A DNA stretch of 64,000 nucleotides from Alloacidobacterium dinghuense. GTDB taxonomy: Bacteria > Acidobacteriota > Terriglobia > Terriglobales > Acidobacteriaceae. The stretch spans positions 5,270,001 through 5,334,000 of the forward strand of contig NZ_CP060394.1 in NCBI RefSeq assembly GCF_014274465.1, written 5' to 3'. Of this stretch, positions 2,129-53,670 are shown piece by piece; within the stretch, counting starts at the first letter, position 1; each line of letters begins with the position of its first letter. The position numbers and the translations under genes were made by a program. The notes under the pieces were generated by a model, which was not told the DNA's origin, made no database searches, and worked only from the letters and a program-made list of their open reading frames with translations.

Positions 2129-5044
2129 TCAAAAATTCTCCATCATCCAAACATTCACGTTGTCGGAAAAAAATGGCATGGCTACGTGCTTACCATCGGG
2201 CGAGTGTAACGCCCAAACGATTCGCTTGCCATTTGGTTCCCAAAGCACATGCGCATTGCCATGCAAATCAATGTGGAGGAGAACGGCTCCAGGTTGAAGG
2301 CTGCACATGAAGAACCCCTTCCCGTCCGCAGCCCAATCCATACTCACAAGATTGTTCCAATGCTTGACGATGATGTGCTGCAGTGCCTGGGTCTTCAGGT
2401 TGAGCACGTAGATGTTCCCCGTTGCTGCCTGGTTGATGGCAATTCGAGTGGCATGCGGTGACAGCATCCAACCGTAGTCTCCCTTGAAGTTGGGATCCAT
2501 CTTGAAGCGTCCTAATTCACGCCTCTGTTTGAGTTGCGGATCGAAGCTCGTAAAGGTAAGTTCGTTATTCTCTTCCTTCGCATACGCGCATAACTGGATT
2601 GATGGAGCAGCACAAGAAGTTAGGTCCCGAATGTCTCTGGCAATCAGTTCTTCTGGGCCTCCGGTCATGGGCACTCTAAGCAGGTCGTGGTGGGCCCATC
2701 CGACAGAGCCGGGAGACTCACGCTCAATCAGCAACCAACGTCCATCGGGGCTCGTCCGGGGAAATCCGAATTCGCCAGTGTTTTCTACCAGCACCGGCTG
2801 AGCTGCTCCCCCACTCAAAGGCTGCCGATAAATGCCCCATTTCCCGTCGCGGTTCGACGTAAAGACGACTTCACGGCTATCAGCCGTCCATCCGTTTGGG
2901 TATTCCGTACCTTCTGTCAGGCTCAAATGCCTTGGAGGGGTAATCCGAGTGCCTCCAGCTTCGACATCAGCAACATAAACCGCAGCAGAATTTGATCGTT
3001 TCGTAAAGACCAGCTTTTTGCTGTCTGCGGTTGCGGAGATGTCCTCAACGCAGAAGCCGCTGTAATGAGTAAGCTGTCGGGCATTTGATGCGAATGCACC
3101 AGTCTGTTGATCGATTCGCGCGACCCAGAAGTTGCAAGTCACGCCCTCGGTGTCCTCTTCCAGCACATACACAACACGGCCGTCGCGCAACCAATAGAGT
3201 CCGTGAATTTGCGGATTAGAGAGCACAACGTGACTGTCACCGCTTTTGAGGTCTCGAATCTCAATCGATCGTCGAGGACTCGCATCCCTCTTCTGGTAAA
3301 GTAACTTTGTTCCATCCGGCGACCACCGGACCCCCATAACAGCGCCATTCTCGCCTGCGTCGAGCAGTTTTCGCGGATTGCGGCCGTCAGCGTCCATCAC
3401 CCACAGTTCGCGCCCTGTCCCGTTGGTCGCTGCGACCGATGAACCGTCAGGAGAAACACCCCAGGCAAACGCGTCCTCACGAACTTTGTGGAGTACACCG
3501 CCCATTACTGACGCCTCCCATGTAATCACGCCAGCTGAATTATCATCACTCGTTTGCGAGACTGCCAAAAAACGTGCGTTGTCTGGGAACCAGCGAATGC
3601 TCCAAGATACGTGAGCATCTCCAAATTGCGCTGGGTTAGGCATGTCACGAGTTTCACCGCTCTCGAGAGATCGAACTTGAAGACCGAAATTGTCCCCAAA
3701 AGCAAGATACTTTCCATCCCCTGAAATTTGCGGACCGACGATAGGGTTGTCGCTGGAACTCGTGGTGAGCTTTCGCTCTTTGATTTCTATGGGAGGAGAA
3801 AGGTGGGAGTACTTCCACCAGAGGAAACTAATGGCAGCTAAGAGAAGGACCAATCCTCCGCCAATGAATGTTTTCGCGCGCAGTGCCCAATGGGATGATG
3901 AAGAAGACTCGCCTGGGGCCGTGGAGATGCTCTTCAGCTCTGCGAGCATCTCAGCTGCTGTCTGGTACCGCGACTCACGGTCTTTCTCCAGCGCTTTGCG
4001 AATAATTCCTTCGAGCTTAACGGGCAACTCGGGATTCAATTCGCTCACGGGAGGCAACGTCCGATGAAGAATGGCATCCTGGACAACTGCTGCCGTATCT
4101 CCGCTAAACGCGCGCTGCCCAGTCGCCATCTCAAAAAGGACCAAGCCAAACGAAAACAGGTCGGTGCGGGAATCAACCTTTTCGCCGCGTACCTGTTCAG
4201 GCGACATGTAGCCGGCCGTACCCATCGCAATTCCAGTACGGCTTAGGCTTTGCTCAACAGAAAACTCGCGCCCGAACGCCGTCTGAGAACTGCCATGCCG
4301 ATCCTCCTCGGTAGGGTCGGATGGGATATCTGTTTCAGTCTTTGCAAACTTCGCCAGCCCAAAGTCCAGTACTTTGGATTCGCCATGAAGGGTGAGGAAT
4401 ATATTCGCAGGCTTGAGATCGCGATGCACGATGCCGCGCCGATGGGCGGCATCGAGCGCATCGGCAACCTCGGCCGCATAGTGTAGCGTCAACTCGAGCG
4501 GGAGCCGTCCTTTTTGCAATCGCTTCGCCAGCGTCTCGCCTTCCAGGTGCTCCATGACCAGGAAGTGCGTTCCGTCCTGCTGGCCGATGTCATGTAAGGT
4601 GCAAATGTTGGGATGCTGCAGTGCCGAAATCGCCCTAGCCTCGCGTTCGAAGCGCTGCTGTCGAAACGGATCGGATGACAGCGCATGGGGGATTACCTTT
4701 ATAGCTACGGTGCGATTGAGCCGTATATCTCGGCCGCGGTACACCTCGCCCATGCCTCCCGCTCCCAGGAGAGCCTGAACCTCGTAGGGCCCGAGTCGAG
4801 TTTCCGCCGCCAGCATGGTGTTGCCCGTAGCAGTAACCAGCGCGACATGGTGTGCCGCCGGAGACTCCAGAAAGTCCGGATCCAACTTGCCCTCGATGGA
4901 AAGGCACTCATCGACGTCGTTACGTAGCGACGGATCACCGGAACACTTGCTATCGAGAAACGCAGCTCTCTCTCCCGGGGGCAATTCCATCGCGCTTTGC
5001 AGGATCCCGCGAACCATCTGCCAGCGCTCCGGAGTCATGCTCAA
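2129..5044 (-). CDS. Serine/threonine protein kinase with TolB/WD40-like sensor
   Basis: 971 residues. A short N-terminal region (1-80) typical of acidobacterial kinases precedes a Hanks-type kinase domain at about 86-370: glycine loop GAGGMGEVY, invariant Lys116 in VAIK, catalytic HRDLKPAN (Asp209), DFG at 227, SPEQ after the activation segment. One membrane helix follows (about 393-411), then a long extracytoplasmic region with PD40/TolB-type beta-propeller repeats ([26 protein letters not shown]). Such proteins are thought to sense envelope or periplasmic signals and phosphorylate cytoplasmic targets; the signal here is unknown. The ATG overlaps the stop of the upstream ECF sigma gene by 4 bases, so the two are translationally coupled and probably act in one pathway. 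Confidence 0.93.
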
Positions 5045-44802: not shown

Positions 44803-45396
44803 ATGCATGCTGCTGACAGTCAAGTTACGCTCCTCTTGCAGGCCATGAGGAAGGGAGACGCATCCGCGGCCGATAAACTGATGCCCCTCGTTTATAAAGA
44901 ACTTCATCGGTTGGCGAAGTCCTATATGCGACGCGAGCGAACCGACCACACGTTACAACCGACTGCGCTGATCAATGAGGCCTACCTGCGCCTTGCTTAC
45001 GACGCTGTCGACTGGCAAAATCGCCAGCACTTTGTCGCGGTCGCTGCAAACGTGATGCGTCGCCTACTTGTCGACCACGCACGAACTCGTCAGGCTGAAA
45101 TGCGAGGAGGAGATCTTCAGCGAGTTGAATTGAACGAAGAAATTGCGATTTCTGCCAAGCACTCAGGTGAGGTGTTGGCTCTGCACGAGGCGCTAAATCT
45201 TCTTGCAGAGGTGAATACCAGGCAGGCAAAAGTGGTCGAGCTGCGCTATTTTGCAGGGCTCTCCGTTGAAGAAATAGCGGGAATTCTAAACGTGTCACCC
45301 CGAACTGTGAAAAGCGACTGGGCCCTGGCAAGGGTATGGCTGTTCAATGAGATACAGCGGTCTCGTGCCTCGAAACTCGACAAGCAAGGAACCTAG
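44803..45396 (+). CDS. ECF-family RNA polymerase sigma factor
   Basis: 197 residues. Same ECF class as the factor at 5041-5613: region 2 in LVYKELHRLAKSYMRRER to ALINEAYLRLA, the NRQHFVAVAANVMRRLLVDH helix, and region 4 with ELRYFAGLSVEEIAGILN followed by SPRTVKSDWALARVWL. The gene is followed, after 224 bases without a gene, by a second, different sigma factor and the CHAT protein. Possible control of that module is inferred from order only. Confidence 0.92.
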   Translation: MHAADSQVTLLLQAMRKGDASAADKLMPLVYKELHRLAKSYMRRERTDHTLQPTALINEAYLRLAYDAVDWQNRQHFVAVAANVMRRLLVDHARTRQAEMRGGDLQRVELNEEIAISAKHSGEVLALHEALNLLAEVNTRQAKVVELRYFAGLSVEEIAGILNVSPRTVKSDWALARVWLFNEIQRSRASKLDKQGT

Positions 45397-45662
45397 AGGA
45401 AATTCAATACCTTCCGTCCACGTCACCGGACTCGACAACGTCGGGTCTTTGTCAATTACCTAAAGAAACTACACCACACTAACGGTGCGAAAACGCTGGC
45501 CGTGGCTGTACGCTGCAATCACTATCAGAGCACAGCCGTCTCGCTGTCGAATCTGTTGTCTGCGCTTACTTTGCTAACGAATTCGGGCAGCCGACTCTTC
45601 CAGTTCCTCGTGTAGAATTCGTGCACTGCGTTTCCGAGGCTGCGTTGATTCCCTACTCTTCC

Positions 45663-46301
45663 ATGGCAGTAGAGGAGTTGCTCCGTGCTTGCGCTGAATC
45701 GAATGACAGTGCGGCTTGGGAAGAGTTCGTTGCGCGTTTTCAACGCGATATTAGTCTGTCAATCATTCGCACAGCTCGCCGATGGGGATTTAGCCCTCCG
45801 GAAGTCGTTGACGACCTGGTGCAGGATACGTATCTCAAGCTTTGTGCTGATAAATGCCGCCTTTTGTATGAGTTTGCGATCGCTCATCGTGAGGCCATTA
45901 ACGGATATGTCAAAACCGTGGCGATTAATGTCGCTCACGACTATTTCAAGTCTCAGCAATCCAGAAAGCGTGGGGGCAAAATCGTCGTGCAAGCGAATGA
46001 AGAGTTGGAGCCGAAGGCTGCAAGCGAGAGCCTGGGGGGCCAGAGCACCATGGAGCGCGAGATTCTCCTTCGCCAGATTGACTCATGCCTGCAAAACTGC
46101 ACGGAAGGACCCAGCCAGGAGAGAGATCGCACCGTCTTCTGGCTTCACTATCGGCAGGGTATGACCGCCAAGGAAATTGCTGCACTACCGACAACAGGGT
46201 TAACGGTCAAAGGCGTGGAGAGCGTCATTCTGCGGCTGAAATGCATGATTCGAGAGAAGATAAGAGATCTGCCATCCGGCTCCTCTACCAAGGCTGAGTA
46301 G
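45663..46301 (+). CDS. Sigma-70-like factor linked to the CHAT protein
   Basis: 212 residues from ATG 45663 (GTG 45621 would add 14). Region 2: AWEEFVARFQRDISLSIIRT, VVDDLVQDTYLKLCADKC and the INGYVKTVAINVAHDYFKSQ helix with SRKRGG, then a variable linker and region 4: TVFWLHYRQGMTAKEIAALP with LTVKGVESVILRLK. It differs from the upstream ECF by a longer linker. The CHAT-domain protein starts 53 bases downstream and has anti-sigma-like zinc motifs, so the two likely form a sigma/anti-sigma pair. Confidence 0.87.
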   Translation: MAVEELLRACAESNDSAAWEEFVARFQRDISLSIIRTARRWGFSPPEVVDDLVQDTYLKLCADKCRLLYEFAIAHREAINGYVKTVAINVAHDYFKSQQSRKRGGKIVVQANEELEPKAASESLGGQSTMEREILLRQIDSCLQNCTEGPSQERDRTVFWLHYRQGMTAKEIAALPTTGLTVKGVESVILRLKCMIREKIRDLPSGSSTKAE

Positions 46302-46354
46302 GCTCGGAAGGATTCTGGTCGAGAAAGTCGTCCTCATATAAGGAGAGTTGCTTT

Positions 46355-49300
46355 TTGGAGCGCCCAGTAGACAAACATCTTGACGACGTTGATATCGAAG
46401 ATTTCCTGTCGGCATCAGGGGATGCTGTCGTCACGGATGGCCCGGTAACGAGGCAATCTGCGGAAGGCGTTGAAAGACACCTCGATTCTTGCCTGGAATG
46501 TAGTCGAAAGGTGCGGATGCATAGAGATGTGCAAGACGTACTGCGGAGCCTAAAAGGTTTACGCACCAGTGGGCCCGATCCGGAGTGCCCTGACACTATT
46601 GATTGGACAGCCGTGGCCGCCGGGCTCTTGCCTGCGGCGGAATCCGAGCTGCTCCTCAGACACGCGGCGAATTGTGAGCGTTGCGGAGCGTTATTGAGCG
46701 ACGCTATGCACGTTCTTTCCGATGAGGTAAGCCCCAATGAAGAGGTTATGCTCACCAGCCTGAAGAGCAACGATCCGTCGTGGCGCAGGTCGATGGCACA
46801 GAAGATGAGCAGAGCTGCACAGCCGCCTCTTGAAAGCAAATGGTGGATCCGGATATGGGAAGCTCTCAGACCGCAACTTCTTCCGGTCTCCGTCGCATTG
46901 GCGTCCGCTGTGATTGTCGGATGGATTGCATTTCACTTCTTCCTCTCCCATCCTCACCAAGGCCCCGCTGCACCCCTGGCACTTATTGCGTCTGCTTATA
47001 CTGAACATCGAACATTGGAACTGCGTATTCCCGGAGCGAGCAACGCACCCATCCGCGTGGAACGTGGCACTAGCGGCTCAAACTTGGACAAACCGGAAGA
47101 TTTGCTTCGAGCTGAAGCCTTGATTGGTGAGGGATTACACAAGAATCCGGACGATACCACGCTACTGGATGCCAAGGCTCGTGCAGATTTGCTTGATAAC
47201 AACTACGAGGCCGCGATCAAGTCGTTACAGCGAGCACTGGAAACCGAATCTAACTCGGCGCCGCTGAAGATAGATCTAGCCACAGCCTATTTTCTGCGGG
47301 CTGAGAAGACAGGTAGAGATGGCGACTACCATTCCGCAGATGAGTACTTAGGCGAGGTCTTAGCTACAACTCCCGACAATAGCGTTGCTCTGTTCAATCG
47401 AGCTGTCGTGGCAGAACGCATCTACTTATATGGAGCGGCGGAAGAAGATTGGAAGAAGTTTCTACAGATCGAGACTGATCCGGGATGGCTATCGGAGGGC
47501 AAGCATCGATACGAACTGCTGCAGCAGAGAATACAAAAGCAGGAACAAAACAATTCGCGCGCATCGCCGATTCGCGACCCGGCATCCGCCCTATCAGCCC
47601 TGCGTTCTCACGCGATTAACCCCAATGACAAAACTTGGCCCCTGCCCCTCGACGAAGCATATCTCGACACAGCTCTAACTGAATGGCTCCCCACAGTTGC
47701 CAGCCACAGGCAACTGGCAGAGAAGAAATCATCGACAGAATGGGCTGCTCTGAATGCGCTCTCTGACATCCTGCGTACGCAGCACGGCGATGAATGGCTA
47801 TCTGATCTCCTCAAAGGTCCGCATTCGTCAGCGTGGGCTGACGGAGCGCTTGAACTCTCCGCGGCCGCGCAAGCGAATGCGCAGGGTGACATGGATGCAG
47901 TCATTGCTCATGCCACCCGATCCATGAAGCAATTTCAATTGGCGAGAAATGACGCAGGTGAGGTCGGGGCGAGATACGAATATTTCACTGGCTCGAATCA
48001 GTCTCAGTTGGAAGATCGATGCATGTCCATCGGCTCAAGCGGACTCCAAGGGGTGCATCGCCATCATTATGCGTGGTTCGAAACTCAAATCCTGTTTGTG
48101 GTCTCGGATTGCTACTTCTTTAAAGGTAATACAGAGCAAGCGATGCTGTACGCAGCACACGCGGTAGCATTGGCTGATCAGGCGCGCTATGCGGTCCTGC
48201 AGCTCTGGGGTCAATATTATCTCGATGGTGTCCAGACACCGTGGGTAGCTTCACCCGATTCATGGGCTCGCATCTCGGCTGGCCTTCGTGAGTTCAGCCA
48301 GGGGTGGTATCCGCCTGTGAACGGATATGTCTTCTGCGTAGATATGGGCCATGCTGCCGAGTCCAGGGAAATGTGGCAACTGGCAGAAGCCGCAGCTAAA
48401 GAAGCTGTACGAATGTCTTCCGGAATAGCTCGCACGTATGAGGCCTTTGCTCATCATTGGCTGGCACGGGTAGCCGAAGCCGCCAATGACACAAAGTTGG
48501 CGGAAATAGAGTATGAAAAGGCCAGCGAATTATTCAGCGGGTTGGGGACACGGGAGGCTCGTGCGCTCCTTTTAGAATCTGAAATTGACCGTGCATCTTT
48601 GGAAGTAAAGCAAAAGAAATTCGAAGCGGCAGGGGCTCGTCTTGAAAGGGTGAAGGCCGGTCTTTCTTCGGGCAATTATGACTATGCCTATGTTGTTTCG
48701 CACTGGGCATCATTGGGGGAACTCCACCTCCGCACAGGTAAACTGCAACTGGCGGAGACCGAACTTCTGGAAGCAGTAAGACTGATCGAAAAGAACGAAG
48801 ACTCGCTTTCGTCGGAAGCAGATATCCTCACATGGCAACGAGAAACCGCAGGAGTTTATCGCGCTTTGCTGGAAATTTACAGCGAGAATTACCGCGATGG
48901 GGCAAAGTCGTTTGGATTTCTGGAGTGGTATCGAGGCGAGCCTCTGTGGCTTGTTGTTCGCTCCAGGCGGCAGCCCGGAGTGCCGTCTATCGCTCAGGGA
49001 AAATCTTCTTCAGGCTTGACATCAGTTTTTGCCCCGCGAGAGTACGCGCTTAAACCGGGAGATGCGGTGATAACGTGGGCTTCCCTGCCCAATGGACTCG
49101 CTGTGTGGCTGCTGGATAGCAACGGCGTGCATTTCTCCTGGGTAAATGTAAGTGCAGCGTCACTGCTTGCCACTGTTACCAGGTTCACTCGGTTGTGTGC
49201 TGATCCCTCATCGGATCCAAATGCAATCGATCGAGATGCCCATCAGTTGTACGACTGGTTGGTTCGGCCCGTGGAGACGAATCTTAAGGGTTCTGCCAGG

Positions 49301-50059
49301 CTTCTTGTTGAACCGGATGAATCTCTCACTTTCATCCCTTTCCAGGCACTCAAAGCGCCCGATGGCAGATACCTGGGTGACCTTTTGCCAATGGTTGAGT
49401 CGCCAGGTCTCGCATACTCGCAAATACTTCGGCCCGCCACAGCCGTGTCAGCGCATAATGCGATTTTGGCTGTGGGCAACCCGCTGTTAACAGACCCGGA
49501 CCTGACGGAATTTACTCCTCTACCGGAAGCAAATCTGGAGGCTCACGATGTTGCGGCTAAGTTCGATCACCGGCATCTCCTGACGGGTACGGACGCTACC
49601 CTGACAAAGGTCAAGGAGATGCTGCCGCAAGTGGAGATCTTTCACTTTGCCGGTCACGCCCTTTCAGGAAATCACGGATCTGGCCTGATACTCGCCCCGG
49701 AGGCGGGGAATGCCGATGAGGCAGGATTGCTTGGAGAAACCCAGCTTCGTGGGCTGGAACTGGCAAACCTGAAGCTCGTCGTTCTTTCAGCGTGCGAAAC
49801 TGCCGTCTCAAACGAGGGCCTGGTGGATCCGAGCAATTTGGCGCGCGTATTTATGCGCGCCGGCGTCCCCGATGTGGTCGCAAGTAAATGGCGCGTCGAT
49901 TCACAAGCGAGCAGCGATTTGATGCACGACTTTTACACGCACTTGCTGCAAGGACAGGCCGCCTCCAATGCGCTCAAGGAGGCTGAGCATGATCTCAGAT
50001 CCAAACCGGAGACATCTCATCCATACTATTGGGCAGCGTTTTCCATCTTTGGTGGCTAG
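46355..50059 (+). CDS. Zinc-binding, TPR and CHAT (caspase-like) protease fusion
   Basis: 1234 residues; TTG start, AAGGAGA eight to nine bases upstream. N-terminus: two HxxxCxxC motifs, His42-Cys46-Cys49 (RHLDSCLECS) and His103-Cys107-Cys110 (RHAANCERCG), as in ZAS anti-sigma factors. One membrane helix (about 175-197). TPR-like helical repeats (about 230-860) include YEAAIKSLQRALETESN. The C-terminal 350 residues are a CHAT protease with catalytic His1101 (FHFAGHAL) and Cys1147 (VVLSACETA), ending HPYYWAAFSIFGG. CHAT proteases belong to the caspase clan; relatives act in bacterial defence and cell death. A sigma factor gene precedes it, a C11 protease gene converges. Confidence 0.92.
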   Translation: MERPVDKHLDDVDIEDFLSASGDAVVTDGPVTRQSAEGVERHLDSCLECSRKVRMHRDVQDVLRSLKGLRTSGPDPECPDTIDWTAVAAGLLPAAESELLLRHAANCERCGALLSDAMHVLSDEVSPNEEVMLTSLKSNDPSWRRSMAQKMSRAAQPPLESKWWIRIWEALRPQLLPVSVALASAVIVGWIAFHFFLSHPHQGPAAPLALIASAYTEHRTLELRIPGASNAPIRVERGTSGSNLDKPEDLLRAEALIGEGLHKNPDDTTLLDAKARADLLDNNYEAAIKSLQRALETESNSAPLKIDLATAYFLRAEKTGRDGDYHSADEYLGEVLATTPDNSVALFNRAVVAERIYLYGAAEEDWKKFLQIETDPGWLSEGKHRYELLQQRIQKQEQNNSRASPIRDPASALSALRSHAINPNDKTWPLPLDEAYLDTALTEWLPTVASHRQLAEKKSSTEWAALNALSDILRTQHGDEWLSDLLKGPHSSAWADGALELSAAAQANAQGDMDAVIAHATRSMKQFQLARNDAGEVGARYEYFTGSNQSQLEDRCMSIGSSGLQGVHRHHYAWFETQILFVVSDCYFFKGNTEQAMLYAAHAVALADQARYAVLQLWGQYYLDGVQTPWVASPDSWARISAGLREFSQGWYPPVNGYVFCVDMGHAAESREMWQLAEAAAKEAVRMSSGIARTYEAFAHHWLARVAEAANDTKLAEIEYEKASELFSGLGTREARALLLESEIDRASLEVKQKKFEAAGARLERVKAGLSSGNYDYAYVVSHWASLGELHLRTGKLQLAETELLEAVRLIEKNEDSLSSEADILTWQRETAGVYRALLEIYSENYRDGAKSFGFLEWYRGEPLWLVVRSRRQPGVPSIAQGKSSSGLTSVFAPREYALKPGDAVITWASLPNGLAVWLLDSNGVHFSWVNVSAASLLATVTRFTRLCADPSSDPNAIDRDAHQLYDWLVRPVETNLKGSARLLVEPDESLTFIPFQALKAPDGRYLGDLLPMVESPGLAYSQILRPATAVSAHNAILAVGNPLLTDPDLTEFTPLPEANLEAHDVAAKFDHRHLLTGTDATLTKVKEMLPQVEIFHFAGHALSGNHGSGLILAPEAGNADEAGLLGETQLRGLELANLKLVVLSACETAVSNEGLVDPSNLARVFMRAGVPDVVASKWRVDSQASSDLMHDFYTHLLQGQAASNALKEAEHDLRSKPETSHPYYWAAFSIFGG

Positions 50060-50280
50060 CATGAGTCAGCATGCTCTCAAAGCGGAACATACAACTGGGT
50101 GCGCTTGAAAATGACCGGTGTGTATCGCAAGATAAAGTTTGCATCGAGAGGCGGGATTGGGGGATAGTGCCGGGCCATCCAAATGACGCACGGGCAGTGC
50201 GATGATTTTGCCCGCCCGTACATCATGTAACCCACTCCGATAACCGGGTATTGACGCGGCTTAAAGTCGCCCCAGTCAGA

Positions 50281-51930
50281 TCATGCCACTGAGCGCTCGG
50301 CAGGCTGTGCGACTTCTATCGTTCTACTCATCAGATCTGCTATCGTTCTACTCATCAGATCTGCATTTCCACCCAGTAGTTGACATACCAAATTTGCCCA
50401 GCGCGTGTCCTGGTTGAATTTGAGTTTCAGGTAGTCACCCCATAGGATTTCATATCCGGTAATTTGTGGGCCGTCTCCTTTATGTGGAGTACCGGGGGTT
50501 TTGTGTGGAGTGCCTGGAGTCTTTACGTCGTCACGTGGCATCACCTTTGGCACCACCTCTTGTTTCACTGCATCGTCGATCAGGGAGGTAATAATGTCGA
50601 GAGTTTGCGGGAAGTAAATGGCAAGACCATACGGATCGATCGATCCGTCCTCCCCTGCGTCACGATGGTAGAGGATGTACGGGGAGCTCACGAGCACATC
50701 GAGGGCGTTCTTTGCCTGATTGGACACGGCGGCGTAATTTTTATTGCGTTCGGGCTCTTCGACGTGTTCCTGGGAGAAAGACTGTGAGAGCTCTTTGCAG
50801 AAGACGCCAAAATCAATGTATGTGACCTCATCAGGAGTGCGTGACGCATCACGTGCGCGAAATATCATACTTTTCGCTTTCACATCCGCATCCCATTTTG
50901 TGGCAGCGTCCAAGGCATTGACCAACTCTGTCATTGCCTTCACAAGGTCGCTGCTCTTCGACAAATTCATTGAAGACAGGGAAACCCTGGTCTTGCTGCC
51001 TTTCTGGGTGTACCTCTCCCGGAATCTGCTTATGATAGCTGCTGACAGAGTGTTGGCATCCATCCCCGGGAATTTGCTCAAGTCGCCCAGGATGGTATCG
51101 TAGGGCCAACTTTGGTCGGGCACCACTTCATCCGAAGCAACCACGAGCGACACTGATCCGGCAACTTCGTGACAAATTTCGGTCATCGCCATCAGGCAGG
51201 AGTCAAAACCCAACAAGTCAATCTTGAAGTCGACCGCCTTGGGATAATTCTTGAGAAGGTCCTCCTTAGAATATTTCTCGAGAATCTCCTCCTCGGAGTA
51301 TTTCTTGAGAAGGTCCTCCTTAGAATATTTCTCGAGAATCTTCTCCCGGGAACATTTCTTGGAATAATTCTCGAGAATCTCATCCTTGGAATAATTCTCG
51401 AGAATACCCTTGCGAACCACCCCCGCGGAATATTTCTCGAGGATTGTTCCAAGTTCGATGTTTGTCACGTAGAGGTTAGGGTTAGGAACGTTCGGACTCA
51501 GTGAGTCTTTCGGCAGAGGATTCTTGTAGAAGTAAAGGTGGTCAAGACCAGCGCCATGTCCCCAGAGAATAAGAGCAATCCTCTGTCTTTCTGGAGGCGT
51601 CGCCGTCGATCCCTCTGGCGTTGCCGTCGATACGTGAGGCATTGCGGTCGGTAACTTACCCGCTGCCTCCTCCAAGCTGAGGAAATCCTTTAACCGTTGC
51701 GCCCGGTTTATGTTTACATAGTTCTTGTCCGCTTCCCAAACCAGTTGTTTCTTGCCCCCGACGCATCTGTAGCGAGACCCCTGCCCGGGGCTGGGCCCAT
51801 CGAGTTGGACAACAATATCAACATTGTTCAGTGAACTAGCATCGGTTAACTGACGCAGGCTGACCAGAGCGTCATCGTAGAGCGTGTTGTCAGCGGAAAT
51901 ATAGACGAGCATCTTCCAAGGTTGATCCAT
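50281..51930 (-). CDS. Clostripain-family (C11) cysteine protease with repeat insert
   Basis: 549 residues, cytoplasmic (no signal peptide). Start of the C11 fold: WKMLVYISADNTLYDDAL, with NNVDIVVQLDGP. The catalytic His125 lies in LILWGHGAGLDHL and the catalytic Cys245 in LLGFDSCLMAMTEI. Between them, residues 163-230 form seven copies of a short Lys-rich unit (ILEKYSKED type). In clostripain and PmC11 the segment between His and Cys carries the autocleavage site after Arg or Lys, so the repeat is in the activation linker. C-terminal features: TPGTPHK twice and a duplicated LMSRTIAD. Convergent with the CHAT gene. Confidence 0.88.
   Translation of the reverse strand: MDQPWKMLVYISADNTLYDDALVSLRQLTDASSLNNVDIVVQLDGPSPGQGSRYRCVGGKKQLVWEADKNYVNINRAQRLKDFLSLEEAAGKLPTAMPHVSTATPEGSTATPPERQRIALILWGHGAGLDHLYFYKNPLPKDSLSPNVPNPNLYVTNIELGTILEKYSAGVVRKGILENYSKDEILENYSKKCSREKILEKYSKEDLLKKYSEEEILEKYSKEDLLKNYPKAVDFKIDLLGFDSCLMAMTEICHEVAGSVSLVVASDEVVPDQSWPYDTILGDLSKFPGMDANTLSAAIISRFRERYTQKGSKTRVSLSSMNLSKSSDLVKAMTELVNALDAATKWDADVKAKSMIFRARDASRTPDEVTYIDFGVFCKELSQSFSQEHVEEPERNKNYAAVSNQAKNALDVLVSSPYILYHRDAGEDGSIDPYGLAIYFPQTLDIITSLIDDAVKQEVVPKVMPRDDVKTPGTPHKTPGTPHKGDGPQITGYEILWGDYLKLKFNQDTRWANLVCQLLGGNADLMSRTIADLMSRTIEVAQPAERSVA
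50317..50364 (-). repeat. Perfect 24-bp tandem duplication
   Basis: Two identical adjacent 24-base units (50317-50340 and 50341-50364) within the end of the C11 protease gene. They encode LMSRTIAD twice and keep the frame. Recent slippage is likely. Confidence 0.85.
51241..51444 (-). repeat. Short coding tandem repeat (27-bp basic unit)
   Basis: About 204 bases encode seven repeats of the pattern [IL]-L-[EK]-[KN]-Y-[SP], most 9 residues apart and two 13 apart, in the C11 protease. On the plus strand the unit reads as variants of TATTTCTCGAGAATCTTCTC. The degenerate copies show divergence after duplication. Confidence 0.85.
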
Positions 51931-52278
51931 TTCTTACCTCACATGGTTTTCCCTTATGTCTCACTTAAACGACCTCACAGAGCAAAAGCCTGTACTGGCT
52001 TAAGAATTATTCGGCTATAAGAGCCTGATGTCCACGCGCAGTGCTTCTTTTGTTAGGCGACAGTGTGGAGTTCTGGATAGCCTGGGCATCAACGCGCCAT
52101 CTCAGGATCAGATCATTACACCAGCGCGAAAAGGTTTTTTCGACCATCTGTCGTCTGCAGAGTCAGAGATGATGCGCCGAATAGAAACTTCGCACAGCGC
52201 ATACATTCAGGGCCAACGGAAGGTCAACAATCCAAAGATAAGGGCCTTCATAAGTCTTTAGCCGGTCGGATTAGAAGT
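51931..52278. other. Divergent intergenic region, C11 protease / kinase
   Basis: 348 bases between the divergent starts of the C11 protease and the serine/threonine kinase. A 77-codon frame (52028-52261, starting MSTRSASFVRRQCGV) has no ribosome-binding site and no motif; it is not called as a gene. Promoters of both genes should be here, and TATAAG near 52015 could be a -10 element for the kinase side. Confidence 0.4.
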
Positions 52279-53670
52279 ATGGCATCTCAGAGACACTTGG
52301 TGGAGAAGTTATTTGAGGGGGCTCTCGCGCTCAAGGCCACGGAGCGATGTGCCTTCCTCGATGAGGCATGCAATGGCAATCCTGAGTTGAGGAGGATGGT
52401 TGAAGACCTTCTGGCTGATGACGCCAGGGCGGGCAGTTTTCTCCAGCATGCGCCGTTGGAATTTCTTGGGGTGGCAGACGAGAACCCTCACACTAAGAAC
52501 GGTAATGCGTCGTCAGGCAGCGCTCCTGCTGGTAGATTTTCCCCGGGCCGAGTGCTCCTCGGTCGTTTCGTAATTGTTCGTTTCCTTGCCAAGGGCGGAA
52601 TGGGGGAAGTCTATGAGGCGGAGGACAGATTTCTACATGGTGCGCATGTAGCCCTGAAGACGATTCTTCCTCACATGGCCGATGATCCTGGTCTGCAAGA
52701 GCGTTTCGCGCGTGAAGTCGTGCTCGCGAGGGAAGTGATCCATCCGAACCTCTGCCCCATATACGACATCTTTCATTGTGACGAGCAACAGTCAGGCTGC
52801 ATGTTCCTGACCATGAAGCTGCTAAAGGGTGAGACCCTTGCGGAACGATTGAAAAGGCGTGGTGCGATATCGCTTGACGAGGGACTCGCAATCCTGAGGC
52901 AGATTGTTGCCGGGTTAGCAGCCATCCATGCGGCTGGGATCGTTCACCGTGACATAAAGCCGAACAATATCATGCTCGACGGGACGGGTCCGGACGTGCG
53001 GTTATGTATCACTGATTTTGGTCTGGCGAGGGCATTGGAGTCCGAGCTAACTGTTTTAAACGGCGGAGCAGTCATTGGGACACCCGACTATATGGCGCCG
53101 GAACTATTTCTTGGCCAGCCACCAACTCAGGGCACTGATCTCTATGCACTCGGTGTCGTTCTGCACGAAGTATTCACAGGTAGAAAGCCGACGATCGCCC
53201 CCGACATGTCTCTTGTTGCGGTGCGTCAATTGAACGGCTCAAATCTGCCTCTATACTGTGTCCAGCTAATCCGGCACTGCCTGGATCGTGATCCCGTGCG
53301 CAGGTGTGAGGCTTTTAAGCGCGCTTTCGATCTTCTGGTTCCCAACTCTGTTCGCGATGGCCCGATTCACGGAACAAGCGAGGTGCGGAGACGAAGCAGC
53401 TTCGCTGGCACAACTCCAACCATTTGCGTAATCGGGGTTGGATCATGGTTGGAATGGGAGCAATTCGAAAGCCTGCTTCATCCCCTGTCACTGAGAAGTT
53501 TTGTTGCTCCATTGAGCTTGCCAAAGACATGCGATGCCCGAATGACACCTGCCTTGACAGGAGTTCTTGGCGCAATCGAACGCGAGCTCTCGCGTCTTGA
53601 TGAATTTGATCGTGATCTCGTCGAGTCTGGATCTGAAGATGTGAACCCGGATGCTCAGGATCCGTTATAA
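52279..53670 (+). CDS. Serine/threonine protein kinase (soluble)
   Basis: 463 residues. The N-terminal 80 residues match the leader of acidobacterial kinases (SQRHLVEKLFEGALALKATE and AFLDEACNGNPELRRMVEDL). Kinase domain about 92-350: AKGGMGEVYEAED, invariant Lys127 in VALKTI, catalytic Asp225 in HRDIKPNN, DFG at 246, MAPE at 272-275. No membrane helix, unlike the kinase at 2129-5044; the C-terminal 110 residues have no recognised domain (GTTPTICVIGVGSWLEWE). It is divergent from the C11 protease, so it may control a response involving the neighbouring proteases (inference). Confidence 0.9.
   Translation: MASQRHLVEKLFEGALALKATERCAFLDEACNGNPELRRMVEDLLADDARAGSFLQHAPLEFLGVADENPHTKNGNASSGSAPAGRFSPGRVLLGRFVIVRFLAKGGMGEVYEAEDRFLHGAHVALKTILPHMADDPGLQERFAREVVLAREVIHPNLCPIYDIFHCDEQQSGCMFLTMKLLKGETLAERLKRRGAISLDEGLAILRQIVAGLAAIHAAGIVHRDIKPNNIMLDGTGPDVRLCITDFGLARALESELTVLNGGAVIGTPDYMAPELFLGQPPTQGTDLYALGVVLHEVFTGRKPTIAPDMSLVAVRQLNGSNLPLYCVQLIRHCLDRDPVRRCEAFKRAFDLLVPNSVRDGPIHGTSEVRRRSSFAGTTPTICVIGVGSWLEWEQFESLLHPLSLRSFVAPLSLPKTCDARMTPALTGVLGAIERELSRLDEFDRDLVESGSEDVNPDAQDPL

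Follow-up and report, generated by a model that had tools for sequence, protein, structure and literature searches.

Annotation of the locus

The window examined here is a stretch of 64,000 nucleotides from the genome (one contig, 6.27 Mb) of the soil bacterium Alloacidobacterium dinghuense. The subject is a cluster of five genes in this window that encode two extracytoplasmic function (ECF) sigma factors (sig1 P0001 and sig2 P0002), a long protein with zinc-type motifs, tetratricopeptide repeats (TPRs) and a CHAT protease domain (P0003), a clostripain-family peptidase (C11 P0004) and a short serine/threonine kinase (P0005). All five genes were found where a first-pass annotation, made from the bare sequence, had placed them, with the domains it had named (Pfam/NCBIfam). 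The residues that it had singled out, Cys1147 of CHAT and Cys245 of C11, are the right ones, and their partners are CHAT His1101 and C11 His125. P0003 likely has the architecture of the anti-sigma factor DdvA of Myxococcus xanthus, not an unknown architecture, and it looks like an anti-sigma factor paired with sig2, as had been proposed. Sig2 belongs to the sigma-70 superfamily (TIGR02937, 49.5 bits, against a cut-off of 42.9); none of its Pfam matches reaches the cut-off. The features of the locus are listed in Table 1.

Table 1. Features of the five-gene locus, with positions counted from the first nucleotide of the window
Feature	Position	Strand	Remarks
sig1 (P0001), ECF sigma factor, TIGR02999/PF07638	44803..45396	+	in relatives, usually near a gene for a Ser/Thr kinase of ~950 amino acids (aa)
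TGTAGAAT, extended -10-like element upstream of sig2	45611-45618	+	read by eye, no statistical test
sig2 (P0002), divergent ECF sigma factor, putative partner of the membrane anti-sigma factor	45621..46301	+	probable start ATG 45663
P0003, likely DdvA-like transmembrane anti-sigma factor: zinc modules, transmembrane segment, TPR solenoid, CHAT protease	46355..50059	+	
first zinc-type motif of P0003, HLDSCLEC	46478..46501	+	residues 42-49
second zinc-type motif of P0003, C78...H103xxxC107xxC110	46586..46684	+	
predicted single transmembrane segment of P0003	46862..46939	+	about residues 170-195; hydropathy; Lys/Arg (K/R) richer on the zinc side
CHAT domain of P0003	49232..50053	+	dyad His1101 (49655-49657), Cys1147 (49793-49795)
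C11 (P0004), clostripain-family peptidase	50281..51930	-	Peptidase_C11 5e-23; dyad His125/Cys245
putative sig2-type promoter upstream of C11, GACGACA-N14-CCTTTT	52129..52155	-	
short Ser/Thr kinase (P0005)	52279..53670	+	Pkinase 9e-43; VALK, HRD and DFG motifs; C-terminal half of homologues absent

Architecture of the CHAT protein

The domain scan of P0003 (Pfam/NCBIfam) found CHAT (PF12770, E 1.6e-59), TPRs and, just under the cut-off, a zf-HC2 match; its two HxxxCxxC motifs begin at residues 42 and 103. Gene neighbourhoods were scored over 75 loci including the window (56 in a close group and 19 in a distant group, after four duplicates were dropped), those drawn from the family-wide and phylum-wide match lists being a selection; one of the 75 (L047) is a half locus, the other half of which is probably L042 on another contig of the same genome, and both are counted. 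Among the close-group proteins that have the column in question, C107 and C110 of the second motif are present in 51/51, H103 in 53/54 and C78 in 50/52, while Cys46 and Cys49 of the first motif are present in 37/37 and 34/35, with 24 and 26 of 61 proteins, respectively, gapped there. Both CHAT residues, His and Cys, are kept in 55/55 close-group proteins covering these positions and in 18 of the 19 distant proteins.

The AlphaFold model of P0003 (residues 35-1234, 14 sequences) has a predicted local distance difference test score (pLDDT) of 77.8 and a predicted template modelling score (pTM) of 0.70. When it was compared with the PDB by Foldseek, the first and second ranks were taken by the transmembrane anti-sigma factor DdvA (8rw5, E 5e-21, TMt 0.71; 8rot, E 3e-20, TMt 0.73), followed by separase and Csx29. 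A profile of 18 family members aligns to the DdvA chain over the transmembrane/juxtamembrane-TPR part and CHAT, with the CHAT His and Cys of DdvA opposite His1101 and Cys1147 of P0003; the zinc segment was also aligned, to HLADCEKC of DdvA, but alone it is not significant. A phmmer search of the PDB with the TPR-CHAT part of P0003 gave no match.

The first-pass annotation did not recognize this combination of sigma factor, zinc modules, TPRs and CHAT, a claim of novelty that falls with DdvA, which already has it. The DdvS/DdvA pair of M. xanthus (PDB 8rot, 8rw5) resembles the P0003 unit in its zinc-type N-terminus, single transmembrane segment, TPRs and CHAT His and Cys, and also in having an ECF sigma partner, as described in the accessible parts of PMC4374960 and PMC12288465. 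According to the latter, DdvS controls an antiphage island of CBASS (cyclic-oligonucleotide-based antiphage signalling system) and type III-B CRISPR genes, a property of one DdvA member and not of the fold family; here, in contrast, the usual neighbour is either C11 or a gene that will be called G3. In the genome of A. dinghuense, Cas1 (PF01867) and SMODS (PF18144) had no match, other cas and CBASS families not having been searched.

Three further systems bear comparison. In Craspase (type III-E CRISPR), a TPR-CHAT protease is likewise linked to a sigma factor via a sigma inhibitor (Csx29/Csx30/CASP-sigma; excerpts of PMC10028731), a related chemistry that also weakens the claim of novelty; however, the trigger there is a guide-RNA complex and the components are separate proteins, whereas in P0003 the inhibitor and CHAT form one membrane protein. 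No CRISPR or type III-E partner is present among the window genes examined, although no directed search was made, and the genome has no Cas1. RseA, named with DegS in the same excerpts, is an anti-sigma factor cut by an envelope-stress-sensing protease, but DegS is a separate protein, whereas the protease-like domain here is in the same chain as the anti-sigma factor. ECF54 genes have CHAT genes nearby, but are described without an anti-sigma factor in the part of PMC8999054 available, whereas here the anti-sigma factor is fused to CHAT. A literature search for CHAT anti-sigma factors returned only the Craspase papers and this ECF54 remark as relevant, a coverage too thin to judge what is in print.

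Membrane topology

A transmembrane segment is flagged between the zinc domain and the TPRs in 15 of 18 full-length proteins, including that of the window (by hydropathy only), and in 15/15 of these there is an excess of K/R on the zinc side. In nine loci TPR-CHAT is a separate open reading frame (ORF), and at the N-terminus of six of the nine there is a hydrophobic stretch resembling a signal peptide or membrane anchor (L040, L049, L064, L066, L212 and L258). Cys556 and Cys586 are found in 54/54 close-group proteins that reach those columns, a conservation compatible with a periplasmic disulfide. The C-terminal part of DdvA is periplasmic. Taken as it is from hydropathy and K/R counts, the topology favours a periplasmic location of TPR-CHAT and a cytosolic location of the zinc modules. 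The first-pass annotation had supposed that CHAT could release the sigma factor directly at the zinc modules; with a single membrane segment between them and CHAT predicted on the far side, it follows that CHAT could not act directly on the zinc modules.

Several observations count against this layout. The distant group does not hold the zinc cysteines (C107 in 6/19), Cys556 and Cys586 are found in 0 and 1 of its 19 proteins, no transmembrane segment is flagged in three full-length proteins (L034, L043 and L051), and three detached TPR-CHAT ORFs (L048, L050 and L063), which may be frame breaks, lack an N-terminal hydrophobic segment. If the hydrophobic segment were no transmembrane helix, P0003 would be a cytosolic Csx29-like protein with a fused anti-sigma domain, and these three ORFs, the cytosolic appearance of C11 and of part of the G3 set, and the presence of Csx29 among the structural matches would fit. 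Such an arrangement is nevertheless highly improbable, given that the segment recurs in the same place with its K/R bias, that the majority of the detached ORFs have signal-like starts, and that a transmembrane anti-sigma factor heads the structural matches.

Distribution and gene neighbourhood

In the window's family, 63 of 398 genomes had matches to P0003 at E <= 1e-60, and in the phylum 39 of 396 had matches to the family profile at 1e-60; the occurrence of the CHAT unit in Acidobacteriota is therefore patchy. Long family matches in named records (L053-L064 and L066) belong to Acidobacteriaceae, other Acidobacteriota and Bryobacterales. A search for related loci with P0003 alone as the query returned nothing.

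In 49 of the 56 close-group loci the CHAT gene is preceded by a sigma gene of the same orientation, and 14 of the 19 distant loci have an adjacent sigma gene. The remaining seven close-group loci either run into a contig edge (L032, L042, L065, L248 and L252) or have inverted halves (L040 and L258), in which the sigma gene precedes the anti-sigma half, and G3 is flanked by the anti-sigma and TPR-CHAT halves pointing towards one another in an inversion-like arrangement. The gene downstream in the close group is G3 in 47/56 loci and C11 in 6/56; no locus has both, and three have neither (the half locus L047, L062 and L265). In a sample of 150 genomes of the family, 18 matched CHAT (E <= 1e-40) and 17 matched G3 (E <= 0.001), the latter being exactly the CHAT-positive genomes minus that of the window. 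In the distant group, G3 was recognized by its profile in 1/19 loci and most others have a diverged ORF of ~240-320 aa in its place, which was rejected as G3 when hhalign gave only a 39-column N-terminal match at 2-6% probability. Some distant CHAT proteins beside a sigma gene (L200, L201, L203, L205, L206, L208, L210, L211 and L218) have an N-terminal domain without zinc cysteines before the transmembrane segment; a YLLG...E.ELI.DY-like pattern is seen there by eye, and the domain may be an anti-sigma domain that lacks zinc.

As a rule, CHAT genes have no link to sigma factors: when more distant CHAT genes were examined at 66 named loci, a sigma profile of limited sensitivity matched an ORF in nine. 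Elsewhere in the genome of A. dinghuense (L052:7844-12608, about 706843-711607) are an ECF-like sigma factor, an anti-sigma-like protein with zinc and transmembrane segments, and a separate CHAT protein of 908 aa; CHAT genes of ~890-970 aa are also found near L033, L044, L048 and L063.

The third gene: G3 or C11

G3 is fast-evolving: in an alignment of 19 members, identity to the first is 13-38%, and the invariant columns are one G, one H and one P. An export-like N-terminus, often with a twin-arginine motif or lipobox by eye, was found in 38 of 58 profile-matched G3 ORFs. One member was modelled (pLDDT 69.6, mostly beta) and had no PDB match at E <= 0.001 and no Pfam match. Some G3 proteins (L060, L061, L064 and L066) end in a Gly/Cys-rich tail.

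P0004 has matches at E <= 1e-10 in 8 of 398 family genomes, of which two are partial at 29-30% identity and six are strong (the window's genome, G579, G610, G548, G487 and G711). In 6/6 of the latter, C11 is beside the CHAT gene and convergent with it, which overturned the idea of an accidental neighbour and bears out the earlier proposal that the C11 gene belongs with the CHAT unit. The CHAT proteins of these six loci form one clade (support 1.0, 50 leaves), nested among the other loci in a tree with rough rooting. The His and Cys of C11 are conserved in all six proteins, and no signal peptide was seen in them by eye, so that C11 is predicted to be cytosolic. C11 has taken the place of the usual partner gene G3 in the window's clade, and it is probably turned on by the switch. 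Counting against the interpretation preferred below, C11 and part of the G3 set (20 of the 58 ORFs, a few being fragments or badly anchored) lack an export signal, so that neither need meet a periplasmic CHAT. The C11 protein of the window (50281-51930) contains an internal EKYSKEDLL-like repeat between the His and Cys blocks, and its homologues in L248/L249 have KFPPTIG/KFPPTMG tandem repeats near the C-terminus.

A candidate promoter

The start codon ATG 45663 of sig2 is likelier than GTG 45621 because of the promoter-like TGTAGAAT at 45611-45618, and several relatives have similar extended -10-like elements ahead of sig2, as judged by eye. The first motif searches returned only coding sequence or nothing clear. 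A motif, ACG-N17-CCTTT, was first noticed upstream of sig2 in L250, L251/L053 and L254. It is present in 10 of 31 sig2 upstream regions (those with sig2 >= 40% identical and > 120 bits, plus the window, and with four duplicate loci excluded), against an expected rate from all loci of about 0.01 per region, and 18 other spacings are each present in 0 or 1 of 31.

In the window, a putative promoter of this type is located about 200 bp upstream of C11, and RACGACA-N14-CCTTTT has no other exact match in the 6.27-Mb genome. The sister locus L246 has a site at the same place upstream of C11, and its 13-base half, GCAGACGACAGAT, is the longest stretch identical to the window in the alignment of C11 upstream regions. 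According to the motif scan, L214 and L247 have ACG-N17-CCTTT upstream of sig2 instead. The pattern suggests that sig2-dependent control may have moved to C11 in the window and L246.

Other findings count against this suggestion. The window's own sig2 upstream region is without the motif, and 20 of the 31 regions in all lack the CCTT form; a good site is upstream of C11 in only 2/6 C11 loci, and that of L246 ends in CCTTTC, its last base changed (one mismatch). Because the C11 site was known by the time the motif was made more specific, the uniqueness of the match is suggestive and not a clean test. If one mismatch is allowed, the genome has 10 matches (one of them exact), compared with 22 for a reversed-pattern control, and no wider regulon is therefore shown; the nine other matches give no clear target family.

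These points lend some weight to another explanation, that CHAT is only a structural module, the sigma factor is released by a change of conformation alone, and C11, free of sig2 control, is a hitch-hiking neighbour in one clade. The C11 gene is convergent and has its own start, the good motif is at few C11 loci, and the motif is not enriched genome-wide. Even so, this explanation is unlikely: the CHAT dyad is kept in close and distant proteins alike, strong C11 matches among 398 genomes are limited to one clade, C11 never accompanies G3 in 56 loci, and the sole exact motif match is the one upstream of C11.

Sig1 and the kinase

The first-pass annotation grouped all five genes together, and a layout with the same gene order is real in two genera, being found also in L246, which is of another genus and has a kinase of 432 aa. 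Sig1 and the kinase are an added pair. The kinase of the window is 463 aa long and shortened at its C-terminus, its homologues in six fetched loci being 932-953 aa; the missing half was not found elsewhere in the window above chance scores. A sig1-like gene is near 5/6 of these kinase homologues, including a paralogous pair in the same genome, and these pairs stand without a CHAT unit. Among the six C11 loci, sig1 and the kinase are present only in the window and L246; the sequence retrieved around the other four, which for one of them extends just 457 bases upstream, showed neither gene. Of the co-occurrence expected in relatives, then, that of CHAT with C11 held and that of CHAT with the kinase did not, and sig1 and the kinase were rejected as core parts of the CHAT unit. 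A simple insertion of the CHAT unit into an adjacent sig1/kinase pair was also rejected, as the orientation of the pair varies. Another Ser/Thr kinase, of 971 aa with PD40 repeats, is encoded in the window at 2129-5044.

PADLOC models recognized no known antiphage system in the cluster beyond a generic kinase domain: sig2 and C11 had no match, CHAT matched SAVED_CHAT only at E 0.002, sig1 had E 0.02, and the kinase matches were confined to the kinase domain. It is very unlikely that all five genes work as a single defence module, with the kinase and both sigma factors as parts and with CHAT freeing the sigma factor by cleavage of the zinc modules. The shared order and shortened kinase of the window and L246 would suit such a module, as would the control of an antiphage island by DdvS in M. 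xanthus (PMC12288465, as far as accessible), but a membrane segment lies between CHAT and the zinc modules, sig1 and the kinase were not found at the other four C11 loci, and the genome has no Cas1 or SMODS match.

Proposed function and its implications

The preferred interpretation, which is probable, is that sig2 and P0003 constitute a signalling unit of the DdvS/DdvA type, with sensing by TPR-CHAT outside, release of sig2 inside, and a regulon that here includes C11. The cytosolic zinc modules of P0003 would hold sig2, and one transmembrane helix would connect them to a periplasmic TPR solenoid that ends in an apparently intact CHAT domain. A signal at the envelope, perhaps contact with an invader, would be sensed by TPR-CHAT; sig2 would then be released, through a change of conformation or else through a periplasmic cut made by CHAT and further proteolysis after it. 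Freed sig2 would transcribe a small regulon, which in most relatives may be the operon that contains sig2 itself and G3. For the clade of the window, where G3 is gone and C11 is in its place, the promoter-like site in the window and its sister suggests that one caspase-clan domain may serve as the outside sensor and a second, C11, as the inside output. Such a mechanism of outside sensing, inside sigma release and C11 output is plausible. The computed results behind it are the conserved gene order, the kept dyads and zinc residues, the predicted topology and fold, the partner switch and the promoter match, whereas sigma binding, the signal, cleavage, the targets of C11 and any sig1/kinase input are inferred.

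A bolder version, possible if on the doubtful side, is a relay of two proteases across the inner membrane, in which periplasmic CHAT would sense attack and free the tethered sigma factor, C11, a clan-CD peptidase switched on by that factor, would be the cytosolic executioner, G3 and C11 would be interchangeable effectors, and sig1 and the kinase might provide a second input in the window's lineage.

The DdvA-type anti-sigma factor, which in the literature found, as far as accessible, comes from one myxobacterium, is hereby extended to a family in Acidobacteriota, in which a third component is the rule and one clear exchange of partner is seen. A concrete candidate promoter and a candidate output gene allow two direct questions: whether the caspase-like domain in the periplasm acts as sensor, as protease or in both roles, and which genes switches of the DdvA type turn on outside CRISPR islands.

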